Part shown: one piece after another, positions 881 through 21,804 of the stretch
Layout: each line of letters opens with the position of its first letter
Numbering within the stretch: the stretch's first letter is position 1
Source: Candidatus Uhrbacteria bacterium CG10_big_fil_rev_8_21_14_0_10_50_16
Lineage (GTDB): Bacteria > Patescibacteriota > Patescibacteriia > UBA9934 > UBA11717
Assembly: GCA_002774875.1 (NCBI GenBank)
Contig: PCYM01000001.1
Span: 76,137 to 118,152 of the forward strand
Length of the DNA: 42,016 nt
Direction of reading: 5' to 3'
The notes under the pieces: model-generated
Database searches by the model: none
The model's input: the letters and a program-made list of their open reading frames with translations, nothing else
What the model was told of the DNA's origin: nothing
Position numbers and translations under genes: made by a program

Positions 881-2020
881 CTAATCAATTGGATACTCGG
901 AAAGAAGTACACGTGTCAGAACAAAAATCGCCTGTCCATAGGTCTGCACCTCGGTTACCTGCCAAGGTTTGTCCATGGGGCTCACCACTTTTCTGTCGTC
1001 AACGCCGTTTACAAGGGCCGTCTCTAAATCACAAGCACGGAAAAATGTGCATGCATGATGTGGTTTTATATTAGTAAAGTCTGTGCCATAGTCGTTGTAT
1101 CCGAGAAGGTACGCATAAAGATGCTTAGAAAGCGGTGCAAATTGTTGGTCGCCAGTTTTCTTTGCATAAAGACGCTCCAAGACAATGGTTCCCGCAATAT
1201 CATAATTGCCTCCCACATAATCAAACGGTTGGCCGCTTGATGTAAAATTTTCTTGCACGTAGGTGAGAACCCCTGCAATTTTTGCAAACTCTTGTTCGAC
1301 AAGGGCGGCTATGGCGATTGGCTGCGCACCCCAGAGACCCTCATATTCATGCTCATTGACTCCGTTGAGTCTTTCGAGCGCGTAGAGTCGATTGTCAGAA
1401 AACGCGAGGTTTCCTTCTTCGCAGCAGCGCTCTGAATAGGTTTGCGTTGCATGCTCCTGTGCAAATTGTCTGTAGATACTCGCTTTATCCCTCTCTCCAA
1501 GATTCTCATACGTGAGGGCGAGCAAGAGCGCCGTGTCCCGTCCTTCTTGTGCGCCAAGTTGATACGCTGTTTGAGGAAACTCTTGTTCATGCAAGACGGG
1601 GCTTAATTGAATTCCGTGGCTTTGTTGGTCTCTGAATTGCTTGTATCCTGATTGCATCATTTGATCGAGACATGCGAGAGGGGATTGCAGCACATCGAGA
1701 AGATCTTGTCGCGTATGCGTGTCTGTTGATTCTGCATAGGCGAGGGAGAGATACCAGGCGGCAAGAGCGTCTCGTGGGGCAAAGATAATGTAATCCCCGC
1801 TGTCGTACCAACAGCCCTGTATTGGATCCGAATGGACACTCTCGTTGTAAGAAAAAAATGCAAGAACATCGGCCTGTTTGGACGTGTAGGGATTGTCGTG
1901 TATGTAGGGCGCGATGGTGATCATTCGGAAAAGCGCAAACCCAAGAAAACAAACAAGAAGAAGTATCCAAACGCCCCAGTGGACTTGCGTTTTTGAGACC
2001 TTTTTCCGTGATGGATGCAT
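881..2020 (-). CDS. Membrane-anchored GH9-like glycoside hydrolase (putative endoglucanase)
   Basis: 379 residues. Residues 14-33 form an N-terminal membrane anchor; the rest should lie outside the membrane. GCWYDSGDY (D73, D76) matches the GGWYDAGD motif of GH9 cellulases, whose aspartates position and activate the water nucleophile. Near the C-terminus, IKPHH, ALVNGVDD and TEVQTYGQAIF follow the order of the GH9 motifs PPxRPHHR, LVGGPD and NEVAxxYNAGF; E357 would be the catalytic acid. At about 340 residues the catalytic domain is shorter than typical GH9 enzymes. It is the last gene of the operon, 6 nt after a micro-ORF and downstream of a BcsA-like synthase. A glucanase paired with a beta-glucan synthase is familiar from cellulose systems, where BcsZ (GH8) trims the product. 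Family assignment is from motif order; substrate specificity is inferred. Confidence 0.72.
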   Translation of the reverse strand: MHPSRKKVSKTQVHWGVWILLLVCFLGFALFRMITIAPYIHDNPYTSKQADVLAFFSYNESVHSDPIQGCWYDSGDYIIFAPRDALAAWYLSLAYAESTDTHTRQDLLDVLQSPLACLDQMMQSGYKQFRDQQSHGIQLSPVLHEQEFPQTAYQLGAQEGRDTALLLALTYENLGERDKASIYRQFAQEHATQTYSERCCEEGNLAFSDNRLYALERLNGVNEHEYEGLWGAQPIAIAALVEQEFAKIAGVLTYVQENFTSSGQPFDYVGGNYDIAGTIVLERLYAKKTGDQQFAPLSKHLYAYLLGYNDYGTDFTNIKPHHACTFFRACDLETALVNGVDDRKVVSPMDKPWQVTEVQTYGQAIFVLTRVLLSEYPID

Positions 2021-2026
2021 GAGCTG

Positions 2027-2200
2027 TTAGCTAATGAGAGTAACGATGTGAGCAACGATCATCTGCTTTTTGTGAATAGTATCGATGATGCGCTGTTTAT
2101 GGGGACTAGCTGGATCTAGAGCTGTGGCGAGTGTGTAGGCCTCCTCTTCTAAATAGAGGAGATCACGCAAAAAGTTTTTTAAATCGCTGTTAGTCATCAT
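2027..2200 (-). CDS. 57-residue micro-protein of the glucan operon
   Basis: A 57-residue open frame running from ATG-ATG at 2200 to TAA at 2027. The start codons lie inside the last codons of the upstream micro-ORF (11-nt overlap), and the stop is 6 nt before the GH9-like start. The tight overlap on both sides supports real, coupled translation. The product is charged, without a signal peptide or strong membrane segment, and looks helical (begins MMTNSDLKNFLRDLLYLEEE and contains PHKQRIIDTIHKKQ). I do not recognise the family. By position it may be an accessory or regulatory subunit of the synthase, comparable in size to some small Bcs accessory proteins, but no homology is claimed. Confidence 0.6.
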   Translation of the reverse strand: MMTNSDLKNFLRDLLYLEEEAYTLATALDPASPHKQRIIDTIHKKQMIVAHIVTLIS

Positions 2201-2351
2201 ACTTTTTGAGAAGTTGAATATTCTTTTTTGTCAGTGTCTGGAGTTCTTCTAAAAAACTCTTAATTTCACGCTCTGCAGAGGTAGAGACATTCAGAAAATT
2301 AAAGAGTGAGTTAATTTTAAACCGTACAATATCCAGAAAGTGTTCTTCCAT
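2190..2351 (-). CDS. 53-residue helical micro-protein of the glucan operon
   Basis: A small ORF directly after the GT2 gene. I chose the start at 2351 (MEEHFLDIVRFK), 10 nt after the GT2 stop. An in-frame ATG at 2393 would add 14 residues but overlap the GT2 gene by 32 nt. The product is predicted to be helical and amphipathic (SAEREIKSFLEELQTLTKK) with heptad-like leucines, so a short coiled coil is plausible. It has no signal peptide and no recognised domain. Its stop codon overlaps the start of the next micro-ORF, and the same coupling runs through the operon. Function unknown; a structural or regulatory partner of the synthase is a guess based on position. Confidence 0.6.
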   Translation of the reverse strand: MEEHFLDIVRFKINSLFNFLNVSTSAEREIKSFLEELQTLTKKNIQLLKKYDD

Positions 2352-2361
2352 GACGAGGAGC

Positions 2362-3906
2362 TTATCGGGTGCGTGATCTGCGGGCGTTTGCATAGACTTC
2401 TAGAGGAATAAAGGCGAGAAAGAAACCATGAAAGGCGGACCAGAACGTATTGATTGCGAGAGGTAGGTCCAGACTCCCTTGAGAGAGATACCAGACGCCC
2501 AACAGGAATGCGGCTAGGTTGATCACGATAAGGAACACCTGCGCACCAAACATGTCCCAAGGAATTTCAAATCGAGAAGCGTTTTTACGTGTTGTTTGAA
2601 ACGACGTCCTATTTCTGAGGAGTGTGTCGATTGCCGCCTTGGCATAAATGGGAACGGCGAGGAGTGTCAAAGACTCGGCTCGCAGCCAATCGATGGCACG
2701 GTACTGTCTGCTCATCAATGTCTGGAAAAAGAGGAATCCCGTCATGGCGAAGTAGGGCACATAGGCGAGAAGATAAGCATACGGATTTGCCGCATAGAGA
2801 GGAATGCGGAAAAAAACGTACAGCGGCGGCAACATCACGAGTACAAACCAGCAAAGACCAACCAGGTAGTAGCTGCCAGAAAGGAGAAACTCCCAGCGCT
2901 GTCCGACTGTAAGACCTCGCCTCCACAGGATATACGGAAGGTTTTTAAAGAACAGATCAAGCGTTCCTCGTGCCCAACGATACTGTTGTCTAAAGTATTC
3001 TCGAAGGTTAACCGGGCCGTCTCCAAATGCGGCGGTATAGTTGTAATATCTTCCCACCCATCCGGCACGCATCAATAGCAGAGATGTGGCAAAGTCCTCC
3101 GTGATAGATGTTTCGTCAAATCCACCCACTTCTCGCAGGGCGGATGTGCGAATAAGCAAGTTCGTTCCACACATAAAGAGTCCGTCATGAGCACTTTTTG
3201 CCTCGCAAAGGTATTCGTAGAAGATGGATTGTTGTAGCTCGGCTGCGCGGCTCACGACGGAGGTATCAATATTGCCGTAAAATTGAGGCGTTTGAATAAA
3301 CGCTACATGTGGAGTCTCGGTGATCTGTGCGACGAGGGTTTTGAGAAAATCTCGACTGGGTCTGAAGTCTGCATCAAAGACGGCAATAAAATGGCTACGA
3401 ATCACATCGCGCAAGCAATCGTTAATAGCGCCTGCTTTTGCTCCATGCTTTGGTTCTGGAACCGCGTAATAGGTAAACTGATAGTCCTCACAAAGCTGCT
3501 TGTACGCATCTCGATTGACTTGTTTGTCGGATCCATCGAGAAGAATAATCTCAAAATTGGGATAATCTAAAAAGGAGCAGGCAATAAGTGTGCGTTTAAC
3601 GATTCCGAGAGGTTCGTCGCGCGCTGGGATGCAAACGGTTACCTTTGGCGTCGACTCACCCGCGTAATAGAGGTCGGGACGTGTATATCGCATAAGAGCG
3701 CGCATGATACTGTAAAAATAGCCGCCAGCATGCAAGAGAATAAACATTTCTCCAACGTAAAAGGCGACAATGAGGACTGTATCAATTGCGTTGATAGAAA
3801 TTGCAAGCGTGTCTCTCAATACAAAAATACGGAACACAAAATAGACAAAAACAGTCATGAGCGTCAGCGTGCTCGTGACAAGAAGTGATTTTTTCCCTAA
3901 ATGCAT
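2362..3906 (-). CDS. BcsA-like processive family 2 glycosyltransferase
   Basis: 514 residues. Two N-terminal transmembrane helices (about 10-30 and 42-65) precede a GT-A domain and at least four C-terminal helices. It carries the processive GT2 set in order: LLDGSD (D124), FDAD (D178, D180), TPQ (206-208), TED (269-271) and QQYRW (Q307-R310-W311). These residues bind UDP-sugar and acceptor in cellulose and hyaluronan synthases. The TPQ and QxxRW motifs and the membrane layout favour a cellulose/beta-glucan-type synthase that extrudes its polymer. There is no C-terminal PilZ domain, so direct cyclic-di-GMP control is not expected. The gene follows a receiver protein by 7 nt and precedes two micro-ORFs and a GH9-like glucanase. 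The exact sugar cannot be told from sequence. Confidence 0.88.
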   Translation of the reverse strand: MHLGKKSLLVTSTLTLMTVFVYFVFRIFVLRDTLAISINAIDTVLIVAFYVGEMFILLHAGGYFYSIMRALMRYTRPDLYYAGESTPKVTVCIPARDEPLGIVKRTLIACSFLDYPNFEIILLDGSDKQVNRDAYKQLCEDYQFTYYAVPEPKHGAKAGAINDCLRDVIRSHFIAVFDADFRPSRDFLKTLVAQITETPHVAFIQTPQFYGNIDTSVVSRAAELQQSIFYEYLCEAKSAHDGLFMCGTNLLIRTSALREVGGFDETSITEDFATSLLLMRAGWVGRYYNYTAAFGDGPVNLREYFRQQYRWARGTLDLFFKNLPYILWRRGLTVGQRWEFLLSGSYYLVGLCWFVLVMLPPLYVFFRIPLYAANPYAYLLAYVPYFAMTGFLFFQTLMSRQYRAIDWLRAESLTLLAVPIYAKAAIDTLLRNRTSFQTTRKNASRFEIPWDMFGAQVFLIVINLAAFLLGVWYLSQGSLDLPLAINTFWSAFHGFFLAFIPLEVYANARRSRTR

Positions 3907-3913
3907 ATGCGTG

Positions 3914-4270
3914 TTAGGAAAAGAGTCGTTGAATTTTTTCAGCGAGTAATGTGGGGTTTACTTCCGATTTTGTGCAGACTTCCTTGACGCCAAGGGCAAG
4001 CGCATCTTCTCGGTCCGTCTGACCATCTAGGTTCGTAAGTACGATCGTTGGAATACGCTTTCGCTGGATTTTCTTAAGTAAGGATAATCCACTAATAATA
4101 GGCATAACAAAGTCTACAACAATGAGGTCTGGCCGTTGCTCCTGGATTTTTGCAATTGCTTCCTCTCCATCTTTTGCAAATACAACGGTAAACCCAGCTT
4201 TGGCAAGGGCTGCTCCGTATTGCTCGCGGTAGATGAGCTCGTCGTCGACAAAAAGGATGTTTGTGCTCAT
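3914..4270 (-). CDS. Single-domain response regulator (receiver), second copy in operon
   Basis: 118 residues, entirely a CheY-like receiver domain. The acidic pair D9-D10 is present, with phosphoacceptor D53 in LIVVDFVMP, the switch threonine in IVLTNLD, and the conserved lysine in CTKSE. No output domain is attached, so it acts by protein-protein contact or as a phosphorelay intermediate. The frame extends upstream to 4387, but the start at 4270 forms an ATGA overlap with the stop of the histidine-kinase-like gene, typical of translational coupling. The gene lies 7 nt before the GT2 synthase, suggesting direct control of polymer synthesis. Family assignment is firm; partner and target are inferred. 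Confidence 0.9.
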   Translation of the reverse strand: MSTNILFVDDELIYREQYGAALAKAGFTVVFAKDGEEAIAKIQEQRPDLIVVDFVMPIISGLSLLKKIQRKRIPTIVLTNLDGQTDREDALALGVKEVCTKSEVNPTLLAEKIQRLFS

Positions 4271-4947
4271 AGGGGAAAGGTAAAAGAGAGTGTTATTTGC
4301 TCCTCTGAGCCTTTGCAACGAACGGTTCCGGAAAGTGATTGAACGATTGTTGGAAGCGAAGCAAGGTAGACAGCCAGCCCAAACCAAGGTTGATGCTTTA
4401 AAGTGAATTTCTCTGCATTCGTAAAAAGTGTTTTCGGAACGGTTGGCAATGCACTTCCATGCGCCGCGAACCCAAGTGTTTGTGTTTTTGTTGTCTTAGT
4501 AAGCTCGCAGGCTAACCGTGCGTTTGGGCAGGCTCGTGCGAGGATACCTATACCTAACAAGAAAAGTACCTGGGCAACTGTTTGATCGAGAGAAAATTGC
4601 GACTCTCCTGTAAGGGTAATACGCCGTTTTCCAAGTGTGTACCTATCTGCCAATTGTGCCGTGCGAAGAAGTTCCTTAACATGACAGGGGACGGATTTTG
4701 GCTGGAAGGAACCGAGGCTCGTACGAGATAATAGAGAGAGTGAATTGAGAAGTAAATTCTGATCTTCGTTGACCGTACGTAACTGTTTAAGGATTTTCTT
4801 CCCAACGGTGGATAGCGATCCGTGAGACTCATTTTGAAAATTATCGAGGAGAAATTTACTAAGAGTGGCGTTCTTTTTTAAATCATGCCAAGCAAAGCGA
4901 GAGTGTGTTGGGTCTTGCAACAAATGTGTTTTAGATGTTTGGGACAT
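4267..4947 (-). CDS. Degenerate histidine-kinase-like / phosphotransferase-like protein
   Basis: 226 residues, no membrane segment, no signal peptide. Near the N-terminus, FAWHDLKKNATL (H21-D22-L23-K24) resembles the H-box of a dimerisation/phosphotransfer domain, followed by long helices. The C-terminal part resembles a histidine-kinase ATPase domain only in outline: PWFGLAVYLASLPTIVQSLSG parallels the GLGL...GG region and the end ITLSFTFPL parallels the usual final strands. Convincing N, G1 and G2 boxes are missing. This architecture, DHp plus decayed ATPase domain, is that of Spo0B and ChpT phosphotransferases. It sits between two receiver genes with overlaps on both sides (17 nt and 4 nt). 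The relay role is inference; a non-catalytic scaffold is also possible. Confidence 0.6.
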   Translation of the reverse strand: MSQTSKTHLLQDPTHSRFAWHDLKKNATLSKFLLDNFQNESHGSLSTVGKKILKQLRTVNEDQNLLLNSLSLLSRTSLGSFQPKSVPCHVKELLRTAQLADRYTLGKRRITLTGESQFSLDQTVAQVLFLLGIGILARACPNARLACELTKTTKTQTLGFAAHGSALPTVPKTLFTNAEKFTLKHQPWFGLAVYLASLPTIVQSLSGTVRCKGSEEQITLSFTFPL

Positions 4948-5317
4948 AGGTGTTGTGTACTTCTCGTACCGCTTTTACAAATCCGTCGAGGTCGATATTG
5001 GATTTGAGAATTGCTGCAGCTGCTCCGAGTTCTGTTGTGCGCTCGAGTTCCTCTGGCTGACTCAGGTTGGATGCAACGATGATTGGATAAGAGAGATGTT
5101 TTTTCTTTGCTTCCTTGAGTACTTCAAACCCATCTTTGACAGGCATGAGGAGATCCAGGATCATGACATCAAAATCTTGCTCCATAATATCGCAGGCGGC
5201 TTGACCGTCCTCAACGTGTGTTACGTCCCAGCCCTCCATGTTAAATCGATCAATTAAAAGACCTGCGAGCATGGTGTCGTCTTCTGCGAGGAGAATACGC
5301 TTAATTGGAGGGGGCAT
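4931..5317 (-). CDS. Single-domain response regulator (receiver), first gene of operon
   Basis: 128 residues, a stand-alone CheY-like receiver. The acidic residues E12-D13-D14 lead, phosphoacceptor D55 lies in VMILDLLMP, the switch residue is the serine in IVASNLS, and the lysine is in ILKSN. The frame runs back to 5422, but the start at 5317 (MPPPIKRILLAEDD) fits the family; residues upstream read as leader sequence. An extended -10 box (5381-5389, minus strand) lies 63 nt upstream. This is the first gene of the operon, so the two receivers flank the kinase-like protein. No DNA-binding domain is present. The cognate kinase is not in the operon; the CACHE/PAS kinase at 19678 is an orphan candidate. 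Confidence 0.9.
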   Translation of the reverse strand: MPPPIKRILLAEDDTMLAGLLIDRFNMEGWDVTHVEDGQAACDIMEQDFDVMILDLLMPVKDGFEVLKEAKKKHLSYPIIVASNLSQPEELERTTELGAAAAILKSNIDLDGFVKAVREVHNTYVPNI

Positions 5318-5481: not shown

Positions 5482-6843
5482 ATGAGGAACGGTTCGCGAA
5501 AAGGAGGACATGTGCATTATGCGCATATCGTTGCAGCGGATATGGGCTATGGGCATGAGCGACCTGCACGATCATTGGAATACCTCGCAGTAAAAGGCGA
5601 AGGTGTTGTTGTTGCCAATAATTATCCGGGGATTCCAAAGAAGGATCGAGCCGTGTGGCAAAAATCTCGACAGTTTTATGAAACCATGTCGCGATTAAAG
5701 TCGATTCCATTGATTGGCGATGTGTTATTCGAAACACTGGTCGATAAAGGCCAGGAAGTCGCGCTATTTTATCCTCGCCGCGACTTGTCGCACCCAACGA
5801 TACAACTGAGGCAGATGTATACAGGAATTCGAGCAGGCTTGGGTCGTCACTTGATAGAAAAGCTCGCAAAAAATCCCGTTCCTATCATTACCACATTTTT
5901 CTATGTGGCGTTTATGGCGGAGGAGTTTGATTATCCGGGTGACATTTGGTGTGTGACGACCGATGCCGACATCTCGCGTGCGTGGGCACCTTGGGATCCA
6001 AAAAAGAGTCGGATTCATTACATCGTTGGGAACGGCCGGTGTGCGGAGCGACTCAAGCTCTATGGTGTTCGTGACGAGTTCATTCATCTTACGGGATTTC
6101 CGTTGCCGCCTGATTTGATTGGAGGAATAGACGCACCTGTATTGAAGACAGACATTATTCGACGCATGTGTGCCTTGGATCCAAAAGGTATCTTTAGGAG
6201 CTTCCATGCACAGGTGCTTGATTCGCATCTAGGAAAGGGTGTTTGCCCAATGACGCAAAACGGCCATGTGCCAACAGTGATGTTTGCCATTGGTGGAGCG
6301 GGAGCGCAGGAGAAATTAGCGAAGACGATTCTCAAGAGCCTCGCACATGTCCTTGCACGAGGGGAGATAAAGCTTATTCTTATGGCGGGCGCGAGGCCGG
6401 GTCTAGGAGAACGATTAAAAAAAGAGGCGCAACGACTGCACCTCGGTTCACTTCTTAATAAAACACTCGTGATCAAATCGTACAAACGACGTGCGACGTA
6501 TTTCTCCGCGTTTCATGAACTCCTTCATTCCGTGGATATTTTGTGGACCAAACCGTCCGAGCTATCTTTTTACGCGGGGCTAGGTATTCCGATTCTCATT
6601 GCACCGCCTGTTGGATCACAGGAAAATTTTAATAGAAAATGGATCGAGCAAGTGGGTGGTGGCGTTTTTATGGAAGATCCACGATACGCAGGAGAATGGC
6701 TCATGGATTGGATTGCCTCTGGAGCCTTTGCGCGTATGGCGTGGAATGGGTACATTAGTGCCCCGACACATGGAACCTATAGGATCGAGGCGATCGTTTT
6801 TGGTGAGGATATGCCAATCCACACACTCCCATTGATTGTTTAG
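5482..6843 (+). CDS. MGDG-synthase/GT28-like glycosyltransferase
   Basis: 453 residues, soluble. The N-terminal ADMGYGHERPA resembles the glycine/histidine-rich loop that opens MGDG synthase and MurG-type GT-B enzymes. The middle FAIGGAGAQEK starts the second Rossmann lobe (like the PLxxxGG(S/G) region), and LWTKPSELSFYAGLGIPILIAPPVGSQENFN corresponds to the nucleotide-sugar-binding signature (usually KPG...EA...G.P...P...QE..N). The family transfers sugars to lipids or lipid-linked acceptors at the inner membrane face; acceptor and donor here are unknown. It is divergently transcribed from the glucan operon and overlaps the flavoprotein stop by 4 nt. The start at 5482 is supported by a promoter 8 nt upstream. 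Confidence 0.68.
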   Translation: MRNGSRKGGHVHYAHIVAADMGYGHERPARSLEYLAVKGEGVVVANNYPGIPKKDRAVWQKSRQFYETMSRLKSIPLIGDVLFETLVDKGQEVALFYPRRDLSHPTIQLRQMYTGIRAGLGRHLIEKLAKNPVPIITTFFYVAFMAEEFDYPGDIWCVTTDADISRAWAPWDPKKSRIHYIVGNGRCAERLKLYGVRDEFIHLTGFPLPPDLIGGIDAPVLKTDIIRRMCALDPKGIFRSFHAQVLDSHLGKGVCPMTQNGHVPTVMFAIGGAGAQEKLAKTILKSLAHVLARGEIKLILMAGARPGLGERLKKEAQRLHLGSLLNKTLVIKSYKRRATYFSAFHELLHSVDILWTKPSELSFYAGLGIPILIAPPVGSQENFNRKWIEQVGGGVFMEDPRYAGEWLMDWIASGAFARMAWNGYISAPTHGTYRIEAIVFGEDMPIHTLPLIV

Positions 6844-18449: not shown

Positions 18450-18565
18450 AGAAGGGGTCAGGAATGCCTGTATCTTATCAGGAAACGAGACGAGAAGAAA
18501 TAGATTGGTCGTGCAATCGGATATAGTACAACATGTGGATAGACCGCACACCAAACGTGTTTATT

Positions 18566-18574
18566 TGTTATACT
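18566..18574 (+). promoter_or_regulatory. Extended -10 promoter of the solute-binding/kinase operon
   Basis: TGTTATACT, 45 nt before ATG 18620 and identical to the boxes before 5317 and 40145. It would drive the solute-binding protein, histidine kinase and probably the rhodanese. Confidence 0.55.
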
Positions 18575-18619
18575 GACTGTACGAGCAACGCGGTGCTTTT
18601 TGTAACAACATTTTCTGTT

Positions 18620-19672
18620 ATGAACTCATGGCGCGATAAATGTTATTTTAAGAATGCTATCTGCTTCTTTTGCGTTGTTGGCGCGATAGGGGTACTCGTG
18701 TTTGGAATCTGGCTTTTTTTTCAGCCAAGGCAACAGGACGAGGGTTATTATCCCGGCACAGTACATATTGGCGTGAATCCTTTTCCGGGTTATGTTGCTT
18801 TGTACGTTGCGGAAAGTCAGGACTTGTTTGAGAAACATGGTGTAGACGTTTCCTTGGAACGCTTTGATAACCCCGCGGAGATAACAGAAGCTTTTGCAAA
18901 AAACAAGGATCTAGAAGGGAGAGTTAATTTAACGTACGACGTCGTTAAGGAGAACCATGAAGGGATCTATCAAACGATTGTATTGATCATTGATCAATCA
19001 GCAGGGGCGGATGCACTCGTGGCGTCTGAGGATATTCAGTCACCAAAGGAACTTAAGGATAAACGGATTGCCTTAGACGTTGATTCATTTCAGATGTACT
19101 TTTTGCACCACTTGCTAAGAGATACATTTCTTTCGCCGTCAGACGTCTCAATAGTGCCTTCTGTTTCACCAGAACAGTCATCGGAACTTCTTAAGAACCG
19201 GGAAATAGACGCAGCAATTGTCTATGAGCCGGGGCTTTCTACGATTGTAGAAAACAGGTTCGGATCTGTTCTGGTATCGTCGGCTGAACATCCCTATACG
19301 ATTATTGACGTTTTGGCATTCCGCAAAGAGTTTATCGAGCAATATCCAAAGACGGTTCAGGCGATTATAAGCGCATACTTTGATGGATATGCCTTTCTTC
19401 AAGAACATCCCGTTGAGGCGGAACGCATACTTTCGCGAGAGTTACAGGTTGATCCAAGTGAAGCATCAACTCAATTAGCAAGTGTTTCCATGTACGATCT
19501 TCAAGAGAATATTCGTCTTTTGCGTTCAGGTTTTGTCCCGGATTCTATTTATCTCCATCTGTTTGACATTCGTAATTATCTCTTACGATCATTAAAGTAC
19601 GCCACATTTGTAAATACGGACCTTTTGATTGATCCGTCTTTTTTGCGACAGGAGCTCAAACATCGTGAATAG
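18620..19672 (+). CDS. Membrane-anchored NMT1/SsuA-like solute-binding protein
   Basis: 350 residues. An N-terminal transmembrane helix (about 13-35) is followed by a type 2 periplasmic-binding fold: VHIGVNPFPGYVALYVAESQDLFEKHGVDVSLERF is replaced here in part as IGVNPFPGYVALYVAE and LFEKHGVDV, the standard opening of NMT1/SsuA/ThiY-type proteins; LKDKRIALD and REIDAAIVYEPGLS follow in family order. Such proteins bind small organic ligands such as sulfonates, pyrimidines or nitrate analogues. The helix shows no lipobox, so it stays anchored. No permease or ATPase gene is nearby; it lies 5 nt before a CACHE-type histidine kinase, so it probably presents a ligand to the sensor rather than feeding a transporter. 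Confidence 0.82.
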   Translation: MNSWRDKCYFKNAICFFCVVGAIGVLVFGIWLFFQPRQQDEGYYPGTVHIGVNPFPGYVALYVAESQDLFEKHGVDVSLERFDNPAEITEAFAKNKDLEGRVNLTYDVVKENHEGIYQTIVLIIDQSAGADALVASEDIQSPKELKDKRIALDVDSFQMYFLHHLLRDTFLSPSDVSIVPSVSPEQSSELLKNREIDAAIVYEPGLSTIVENRFGSVLVSSAEHPYTIIDVLAFRKEFIEQYPKTVQAIISAYFDGYAFLQEHPVEAERILSRELQVDPSEASTQLASVSMYDLQENIRLLRSGFVPDSIYLHLFDIRNYLLRSLKYATFVNTDLLIDPSFLRQELKHRE

Positions 19673-19677
19673 ATACT

Positions 19678-21804
19678 ATGAAGATACGAAACCTCTTAAT
19701 TAGTGTCTACGCGGTCGTTGCGTTGCTTCCTCTTTTTGGCATTGTGTGGGTGAACTACCGATCAACGGAAACCGCTTACGTAGAGCAGGAGTTTTCTAAT
19801 TTGACTGCGATCGTAGAAGCAAGGACCTCTGCCATTAAGGAATATATGTATTCGTGGGAGCGGTTGATTACAATCATTCAGGATGACAATCAGATCAAAA
19901 CAAACTTGCCAGTTCTCGTTAGGCTGGAGAACACAACGAATGATCAAGAGTTTCAGTCAGCCAAACACAACCTTGATCAGCAATTGCGTGCATGGAGGAA
20001 CACTGTCGAGGAGGTCATGGACGTTCTGCTCGTGTCTCCGGATGGGACGGTTGTGTTTGCAGACGATCATCGTATTACAAACGGCGTTCGTAAAACCCTG
20101 TACGATCCCACAAACACGGTTATGCAGAATGCAAAAAATGGAGTCTTTATCAGCAGTCTTTTTATTGGAAAGGATAATGAACCAAAATTTTTTGTTGCTG
20201 CACCTATTTATGACGTTGGTGAAGAATTTGTTGGGATTGTGATTTTTGAGGTGAATGCATACAAACTGTACGCCATTATCCAGGATACAACGGGACTCGG
20301 GACGACCGGAGAGACTGAGGTTGCTCAACTTGTTGGGAATTCTGTGCTCTTTTTAAATCCATTGCGCTTTAATTCAGATGCGGCGTTTACTGTATCGCTG
20401 CCATTTTCGGGAGAGGTTCTCAATAACCCTGCGCAGCGTGCTGTTTTGGGAGACAATGATCAAGGATTTGTCGTCGATTATCGAGGCAGGGACGTGCTGG
20501 CTGTCTGGCGCTATATTCCAAGCCTTAATTGGGGCCTTGTGACAAAAATCGATCAAGCGGAAGTGCTTGTTCCTGCACAAGCTCTTGGTAGGTGGATTAT
20601 TGCAATCGTTTCTATTTTGTCGGGTATTATTTTGTTTTGTGTGTGGATAATGGCAACGTATGTAGATAAACTCGTCCGTTCACGGGAGGAGATAGGCAAA
20701 AAAAGCGAGGCAATTTTGCAGGGAATTGGGGATGCTGTGTTTGTGGTGGATCCAAATTTGATTATTCAGCAATTCAATCGTGTGGCGGTTGAGATGACTG
20801 GTATATCGGAAAAAGATGCGCTTGGGAAACATTACAAACAAGTCATGCGCTTTATTTCAGAAGAAACTGGAGAGGAAAAAGATGTCTTTATTACGGAAGC
20901 GCTTAAGGCGGGAGCCGTGCGAACACGCGCAAATCATACGCTTTTGTTGCGCAATGATGGTGTAAAGATCCCCATCGAGGAAAACGTGGCTCCCCTCGTG
21001 AATCATGAGGGAAGTATTTTAGGTGTTGTAGTGATGTTTGAGGATGTTACAAAAGAGCGGGAGATCGATAATATGAAAACAGATTTTATCTCAATTGCCT
21101 CACACCAATTGCGTACTCCTCTTACGGGAATTAAGTGGGCTACAGAACTTCTACTAAAGGACCGCGCTTCGTTGTCGGATAAACAACAGGAGTATCTTGA
21201 CCGTATCCATTCGAGTGAGGAGCACATGGTGGATCTTGTTAAAGGTCTTCTAAATGTGAATCGATTGGAATCGGGTACAATTAGCATCCAACCAGTATCT
21301 GTGGATCTTGGTGAGTTGGTGAGATCGCTTGGGAAGGATGTGAGTCTTGTTGCGGAAAAAGAAGGTGTTTATTTTGAGACACGAGTCCCAACGGAGCCTA
21401 TAGTTACGGGGATTGATAAGGATATCTTTGGTATCATTGTTCAGAACCTTGTTTCTAACGCCATGAAATATTCAAATACTGGAGGAGAGATTACACTTTC
21501 CTTGTCGTCGCATGATCAAAGGATTGCACTTTCTGTTACGGATACCGGTATTGGGATCCCCGTGCGTCAACAGTCTCAACTCTTTCAAAAGTTTTTCCGT
21601 GCAGATAATGCAATCTTGTCGCCAGCCGAGGGAACGGGTCTTGGGCTGTATGTTACAAAAACAATGGTGGAGCAGGCGGGAGGAACGCTGACGTTTGTTT
21701 CGGCAGAAGGTAAGGGATCCACGTTTACGGTGGAATTTCCTCTCTCGGGCATGGCGCCGCACAAGGGAACAAAGAAGCCGGAAACAGTTATCTTGATTTC
21801 TTAA
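19678..21804 (+). CDS. CACHE/PAS sensor histidine kinase
   Basis: 708 residues. TM1 (about 7-25), a large extracytoplasmic double-CACHE-like domain (about 30-300), TM2 (about 308-330), a PAS domain (about 343-465, with GDAVFVVDPNLIIQQFNR), a HisKA domain with ASHQLRTPLTG (phosphoacceptor H476) and a complete HATPase_c: QNLVSNAMKYSN (N box), DTGIGIP (G1) and GTGLGLYVTKTMVEQAGG (G2). All catalytic motifs are intact. It sits 5 nt after a solute-binding protein gene and 8 nt before a rhodanese gene, but no response regulator is adjacent. The two stand-alone receivers in the glucan operon are candidate partners; that pairing is inference only. Confidence 0.92.
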   Translation: MKIRNLLISVYAVVALLPLFGIVWVNYRSTETAYVEQEFSNLTAIVEARTSAIKEYMYSWERLITIIQDDNQIKTNLPVLVRLENTTNDQEFQSAKHNLDQQLRAWRNTVEEVMDVLLVSPDGTVVFADDHRITNGVRKTLYDPTNTVMQNAKNGVFISSLFIGKDNEPKFFVAAPIYDVGEEFVGIVIFEVNAYKLYAIIQDTTGLGTTGETEVAQLVGNSVLFLNPLRFNSDAAFTVSLPFSGEVLNNPAQRAVLGDNDQGFVVDYRGRDVLAVWRYIPSLNWGLVTKIDQAEVLVPAQALGRWIIAIVSILSGIILFCVWIMATYVDKLVRSREEIGKKSEAILQGIGDAVFVVDPNLIIQQFNRVAVEMTGISEKDALGKHYKQVMRFISEETGEEKDVFITEALKAGAVRTRANHTLLLRNDGVKIPIEENVAPLVNHEGSILGVVVMFEDVTKEREIDNMKTDFISIASHQLRTPLTGIKWATELLLKDRASLSDKQQEYLDRIHSSEEHMVDLVKGLLNVNRLESGTISIQPVSVDLGELVRSLGKDVSLVAEKEGVYFETRVPTEPIVTGIDKDIFGIIVQNLVSNAMKYSNTGGEITLSLSSHDQRIALSVTDTGIGIPVRQQSQLFQKFFRADNAILSPAEGTGLGLYVTKTMVEQAGGTLTFVSAEGKGSTFTVEFPLSGMAPHKGTKKPETVILIS

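Follow-up and report, generated by a model that had tools for sequence, protein, structure and literature searches.

The window analysed here is a stretch of 42,016 nucleotides from Candidatus Uhrbacteria bacterium CG10_big_fil_rev_8_21_14_0_10_50_16, whose genome measures about 0.9 Mb, and the subject of this report is a putative glucan-synthase operon near its start. Positions are 1-based positions of the window; L numbers denote loci of relatives and G numbers genomes, G000 being the window's own. Seven open reading frames (ORFs) form one tight unit on the minus strand, running from 5317 to 881. They encode, in that direction, a stand-alone receiver of 128 aa (RR1, 4931..5317), a kinase-like protein of 226 aa (HK-like, 4267..4947), a second stand-alone receiver of 118 aa immediately 5' of the synthase gene (RR2, 3914..4270), a BcsA-like processive GT2 glycosyltransferase of 514 aa without PilZ (2362..3906), two micro-proteins of 67 aa (mp1, 2190..2393) and 57 aa (mp2, 2027..2200), and a GH9-like glucanase of 379 aa that has a single membrane anchor at its N-terminus (881..2020). 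RR1 overlaps HK-like by 17 nt, HK-like overlaps RR2 by 4 nt (ATGA, with the RR2 start at 4270), GT2 overlaps mp1 by 32 nt and mp1 overlaps mp2 by 11 nt; the gaps between RR2 and GT2 and between mp2 and GH9 are about 7 nt and 6 nt. Both receivers match Pfam PF00072 (RR1, 1.3e-16; RR2, 4.1e-21). The micro-proteins are real genes with homologues at the same place in all close loci (phmmer E-values down to 7e-14 for mp1 and 1e-11 for mp2). An earlier note on this DNA had described a seven-gene unit of overlapping or nearly touching genes with two receivers and two micro-proteins, and all of this is borne out. The Pfam search assigned no family to HK-like, mp1 or mp2, and a search of the operon for RNA elements found none.

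The GT2 matches its Pfam family at 1e-28 and carries the motifs DAD, TED and QQYRW together with a gating-loop motif, FQTTRK. Its best match in the PDB is BcsA (3e-41, residues 16-499), and BcsA is also its best NCBIfam match (TIGR03030, 3.6e-65), with a score of 220.3 bits that lies below the equivalog cut-off of 699 bits. The Pfam search found no C-terminal PilZ domain in this protein, which ends shortly past its last predicted membrane helix. The description of a BcsA-like processive synthase lacking PilZ, as first proposed, therefore holds, and the absence extends to the whole of its own genome. In BcsA the gating-loop motif, published as FxVTxK, is linked to the gating of substrate entry (PMC6821405). 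Because the motif is present and PilZ is absent, the gate seems to have been retained in a synthase that lacks the usual sensor. The product is likely a beta-1,4- or mixed-linkage glucan, and the presence of galU in five relatives' loci, 3' of mp2 in each (L019-L022 and L013), points to UDP-glucose as the supply. A separate observation concerns the GT2s of six Omnitrophota loci (L024, L063, L071, L072, L077 and L078), which are extended at the C-terminus by a tail of about 100 residues; a PilZ barrel in these tails was considered and found unsupported by hhalign and Pfam.

The GH9-like protein passes the Pfam model PF00759 narrowly (2.1e-7, 31.1 bits against a cut-off of 27.7). In the six-frame scan it scores 22.6 bits, and the relatives in L018, L021 and L022 score about 14 bits. 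Its AlphaFold2 model (predicted local distance difference test, pLDDT, 73) is consistent with the (alpha/alpha)6 fold, and the top 29 PDB matches of the model are all GH9 proteins, endoglucanases first (Foldseek, probability 1.00, E 5.5e-5). DSGD in the window protein aligns with DAGD of the family, and the candidate catalytic residues D73, D76 and E357 are invariant among five GH9-like homologues; the model is of low confidence around E357. At the sequence level, a profile built from these five proteins alone retrieved nothing from the PDB, and an hhalign comparison with multidomain GH9s of Patescibacteria gave no useful information. A chance match to GH9 was rejected, given the Pfam score and the structural matches. 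The membrane-anchored GH9-like enzyme of the earlier note, which had been made to depend on a profile search, thus stands. Other, mostly larger GH9 proteins score over the cut-off in 7 of 381 genomes of the window's class (about 2%; L005-L011).

The three genes upstream of the synthase resemble the parts of a phosphorelay. The receivers keep their phospho-site residues; in RR1 the phospho-acceptor Asp lies in ILDLLMP and the Lys in LKSN. HK-like has an invariant WHD, with its His at about residue 21. A profile built from four HK-like sequences retrieves true histidine kinases and places WHD on their H-box; hhalign with kinases (represented by two sequences only) gave 91% over 145 columns, which take in DHp and the first part of the catalytic domain. 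Pfam finds no HATPase match, and the N-box is lost in the hhalign alignment. The structure model, of low confidence, contains a pair of long helices, and kinase cores make up its 21 best fold matches, none of them significant. HK-like had been taken for a decayed histidine-kinase-like protein. Its likeness to kinases stands, but since the H-box histidine is kept and the ATP-binding motifs appear to be absent, it is better read as a candidate DHp-type histidine phosphotransferase than as a decayed kinase. The operon itself has no kinase, and RR1, HK-like and RR2 would correspond to receiver, phosphotransferase and receiver.

In the case of the micro-proteins, the relatives are more informative than the window. 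The mp1 of L065 matches the Rubrerythrin model over 1-58 (25.3 bits, cut-off 22.8), and its mp2 matches Ferritin_2 over 83-134 (24.1 bits, just under the cut-off of 24.7) and Rubrerythrin over 90-132. The mp2 proteins of L024 and L013 give similar matches; mp1 and mp2 of the window have no significant Pfam match to the ferritin-like superfamily. Because the L065 homologues match one half of the fold each, the pair resembles a single ferritin-like domain of four helices split over two genes, with mp1 as the N-terminal and mp2 as the C-terminal helical hairpin. In six Omnitrophota loci (L066, L067 and L073-L076) mp2 is fused to PilZ. Pfam finds the domain directly in two of these, and a genome-wide PilZ scan, with coordinates compared by hand, has matches in all six. 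Mainly on account of these fusions, the pair is probably a regulatory subunit of the synthase.

In most Omnitrophota copies mp2 has an ExxH metal-ligand motif and mp1 has a His. ExxH is lost from mp2 in the window and in L018-L022. A receiver gene lies directly 3' of an mp2 in L024, L063, L071, L072, L077 and L078, all from Omnitrophota; when these are taken together with the window, L018, L019 and L020, none of the 10 receiver-adjacent mp2 proteins keeps ExxH, whereas 15 of the other 18 do (Fisher p 2e-5, or 7e-4 once close relatives are merged). This association between ligand loss and receiver adjacency is suggestive only. In two of the Omnitrophota loci, a receiver and a further mp1-mp2 pair lie next to a histidine kinase (L024 354-2303 and L063 474-2438); the kinase of L024 carries a C-terminal PilZ (4.5e-14), and a PilZ match also lies within that of L063.

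The gene order recurs in distant genomes. L018, from a class other than the window's, has HK-like, RR2, GT2, mp1, mp2 and GH9. L019, also from another class, has the same order with galU inserted before GH9. In L020 (WS6/Dojkabacteria) the order is HK-like, RR2, GT2, mp1, mp2 and galU; L021 and L022 (Patescibacteria) have GT2, mp1, mp2, galU and GH9; and L013 has GT2, mp1, mp2 and galU. The core order in Omnitrophota, where GT2 profile matches occur in 20 of 285 genomes, is TPR, GT2, GH26-like, mp1 and mp2. Identity of the GT2 to that of the window is 42-48% for L018, L019 and L020 and 35-48% across the loci compared. RR2 occupies the same place in L018, L019 and L020, so that it lies directly 5' of GT2 at near-zero spacing in four genomes of three classes. 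On the opposite strand, L018 and L019 hold an RR1 and a PorA-CHASE-PAS histidine kinase (identified by similarity in L019). The earlier note had looked to other genomes for this order and had allowed that GT2 and GH9 might never lie beside receiver-kinase pairs in relatives; they do so in L018 and L019. The unit is real and conserved, more than chance would give.

An accidental cluster of unrelated genes would agree with the record of the 60 nearest relatives, where the search found neither a GH9 of this type nor a close GT2, only one distant GT2. This explanation has next to no probability given that distant genomes share the order at about 45% identity, and it was rejected on that ground. 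Close GT2s occur in only two other genomes among the 381 of the window's class, and the locus, absent from the nearest relatives, is sporadic. Horizontal movement is possible, a point that the GT2 tree does not decide. In that tree the window lies near L018/L019, L021/L022 and L020, and L013 groups with a verrucomicrobial sequence; the deeper placement is unsure, with long branches. L021 and L022 share two further genes. Upstream lies a membrane protein (L021 203-1903, L022 6193-7947; a weak match to GlcNAc 2-epimerase in L022) and downstream a type I phosphodiesterase-like protein (L021 6073-8574, L022 11848-14304; a CBM60-like match in L021). These proteins are possibly polymer-modifying enzymes.

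The distribution of cyclic di-GMP (c-di-GMP) parts differs between the lineages. A genome-wide scan found no PilZ in any of the seven patescibacterial carrier genomes and no GGDEF in five of them, G000 and G407 having one each. Ten Omnitrophota tested have 4-10 GGDEF and 5-15 PilZ domains each. The only GGDEF protein found in the PilZ-free window genome lies at G000:C2:26587-27090 (L083 776-1435, minus strand). That the receivers stand in place of a c-di-GMP switch had been suggested from the window; the lack of PilZ in all carriers and the mp2-PilZ fusions of Omnitrophota strengthen this idea, and the lineages appear to differ by a swap of the control input, with PilZ on mp2 in the relatives and a relay here.

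Outside the operon, a sensor kinase of 708 aa with a dCache-PAS-HisKA-HATPase architecture (19678..21804, plus strand; PF02518 1.7e-27, PF00512 8.4e-18) is 38% identical, over PAS-HisKA-HATPase, to the RR1-adjacent kinase of L018. It is one of only two kinase matches in the window's genome when the L018 kinase is the query, and is a tentative candidate for the input kinase. Just upstream of it, an NMT1/THI5-like substrate-binding protein (18533..19672, plus strand; PF09084 4e-19) is a possible ligand input, through a putative link to the operon. The divergent neighbour of the operon (5482-6843, plus strand) matches DUF6938 (3.8e-12).

The best reading of these data, to which we give a probability of roughly 55%, is a beta-glucan synthase fed by UDP-glucose in which the c-di-GMP input has been replaced by a phosphorelay acting through mp1-mp2. 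GT2 would use UDP-glucose at the membrane and push the chain through it, with export predicted, and the anchored glucanase would trim or edit the chain at the membrane. The two micro-proteins may assemble into a ferritin-like bundle of four helices, which would be the regulatory subunit and take the role that PilZ has in BcsA. In the Omnitrophota relatives mp2 carries PilZ, and the input there is probably c-di-GMP; in the patescibacterial carriers, where PilZ is gone, the phosphorelay would be the input. A membrane histidine kinase would phosphorylate RR1, HK-like would pass the phosphate from RR1 to RR2, and phospho-RR2 would dock on the mp1-mp2 bundle or on GT2 and move the retained gating loop. 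Docking on mp1-mp2 is plausible by analogy, since the four-helix bundles of kinases and phosphotransferases are bound by receivers. The polymer, the direction of phosphoflow, the docking site and the sign of control are what we infer in this scheme. In a broader form, the split ferritin-like pair might be a general adaptor for BcsA-like synthases in Omnitrophota, Planctomycetota and Patescibacteria, with an exchangeable input that is either PilZ fused to mp2 or a phospho-receiver on a ligand-free bundle. We hold this generalization at somewhat under even odds, and the same tentative standing applies to its corollary that the window operon is the PilZ-free, phosphorelay-driven end of the range.

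Several observations weigh against relay control through the micro-proteins. The HK-like model has a pLDDT of 45 and its best fold match an E-value of 0.095. The candidate kinase lies 15 kb from the operon, which is why its assignment is tentative. The ExxH/receiver grouping was chosen with the data already in view and reflects perhaps two origins; PilZ fusion and receiver adjacency are not significantly exclusive (p 0.05-0.13), so that mutual exclusion was set aside as a trend only. The one GGDEF protein of the window genome has an intact motif. Relay genes are also not obligatory for the unit, because L021 and L022 have GT2, mp1, mp2, galU and GH9 with no relay genes beside GT2, although the contig of L021 ends one gene upstream of GT2. 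These last loci, together with the lack of an output domain in the receivers, are what one would expect if the relay were only co-transcribed, with RR2 acting on another protein (in motility, pili or transcription via a partner) and the synthase constitutive. We consider this unlikely, if a serious competitor, given the placement of RR2 directly 5' of GT2 at near-zero spacing in three classes and the independent occurrence of a receiver 3' of mp2 in Omnitrophota.

A polymer other than beta-glucan, such as an amino-sugar polymer, is about as unlikely. The specificity of GT2 enzymes is hard to infer from sequence, the window GT2 does not reach the TIGR03030 cut-off, and some GH9 enzymes are exo-glucosaminidases, one being a weak match of the GH9 model; against these points stand BcsA as top match in both databases, galU in the relatives' loci and endoglucanases as the top structural matches of the glucanase. 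It is less probable again that mp1 and mp2 form a metal or oxygen sensor, a split di-iron protein, instead of a docking subunit. Retention of ExxH and His by most Omnitrophota copies would fit such a sensor, but the window-type copies are all ligand-free and yet retained, and PilZ is fused to mp2 itself; metal sensing could be restricted to the relatives. Improbable, too, and more so than the metal sensor, is continued control of the synthase by c-di-GMP through a non-PilZ site, with the relay as an additional layer. BgsA, a mixed-linkage glucan synthase without PilZ motifs, binds c-di-GMP via its own C-terminal domain (PMC5567048), and G000 keeps its intact GGDEF; the window GT2, however, ends too soon after its last predicted helix to have a C-terminal domain like that of BgsA, and GGDEF is entirely absent from five of the seven carriers.

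The known synthase-dependent exopolysaccharide systems are mainly machines under the control of c-di-GMP. If relay control through mp1-mp2 is correct, the switch would be modular, with a c-di-GMP receptor on a tiny subunit in some phyla and a phosphorelay in others, and the coupling would be testable with a few small soluble proteins. Some Patescibacteria with very few kinases left in genomes about 1 Mb in size may then regulate a secreted or cell-surface glucan, and this would bear on host attachment or aggregation of their cells.

A search of the open literature, with subscription journals and preprints outside its scope, returned no system with this gene set, no processive synthase that comes with its own phosphorelay and no synthase regulated by a split ferritin-like pair, in agreement with the earlier note, which knew of no system with this gene set. 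Neither Omnitrophota nor Patescibacteria appears under that name in a large operon survey (PMC7112194). The window unit resembles the Bcs system (BcsA-BcsB-BcsZ) in its processive GT2 with DxD, TED, QxxRW and the gating-loop motif and in its associated endoglucanase, but it lacks PilZ, has GH9 in place of GH8 and adds two micro-proteins and a phosphorelay; no BcsB-like gene was found among the locus genes of the window and its relatives, the rest of the genome not having been searched. The clostridial Ccs system likewise pairs a BcsA-like synthase with its own glycosidase and has no BcsB, BcsC or BcsZ homologues, but CcsA keeps PilZ, the glycosidase is a GH5 enzyme, and receivers or micro-proteins are not described there (PMC7710045). 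BgsA shares a BcsA-like GT2 without PilZ motifs and differs in the C-terminal domain that the window GT2 is missing. As relays, Spo0F-Spo0B-Spo0A and CckA-ChpT-CtrA consist of a receiver, a DHp-type phosphotransferase that does not bind ATP (ChpT is unable to use it; PMC3433190) and a second receiver, a series that RR1, HK-like and RR2 would share, whereas RR2 of the window has no DNA-binding domain and shares its operon with an enzyme complex. Compared with rubrerythrins and other ferritin-like proteins, whose two halves are matched by mp1 and mp2 of the relatives, the pair is divided over two genes, has lost its ligands in the window and is tied to a synthase and to PilZ. Precedent for post-translational activation by a single-domain receiver comes from EpsW, which activates the polysaccharide enzyme EpsZ of a Wzx/Wzy pathway in Myxococcus xanthus (PMC12802240); EpsZ is a phosphoglycosyl transferase and not a processive synthase, and neither a phosphotransferase nor a ferritin-like pair takes part. 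What is new here is the set of regulatory parts combined with an enzyme of a familiar type, including the micro-proteins as putative halves of a split ferritin-like domain and the fusion of mp2 to PilZ in six Omnitrophota.

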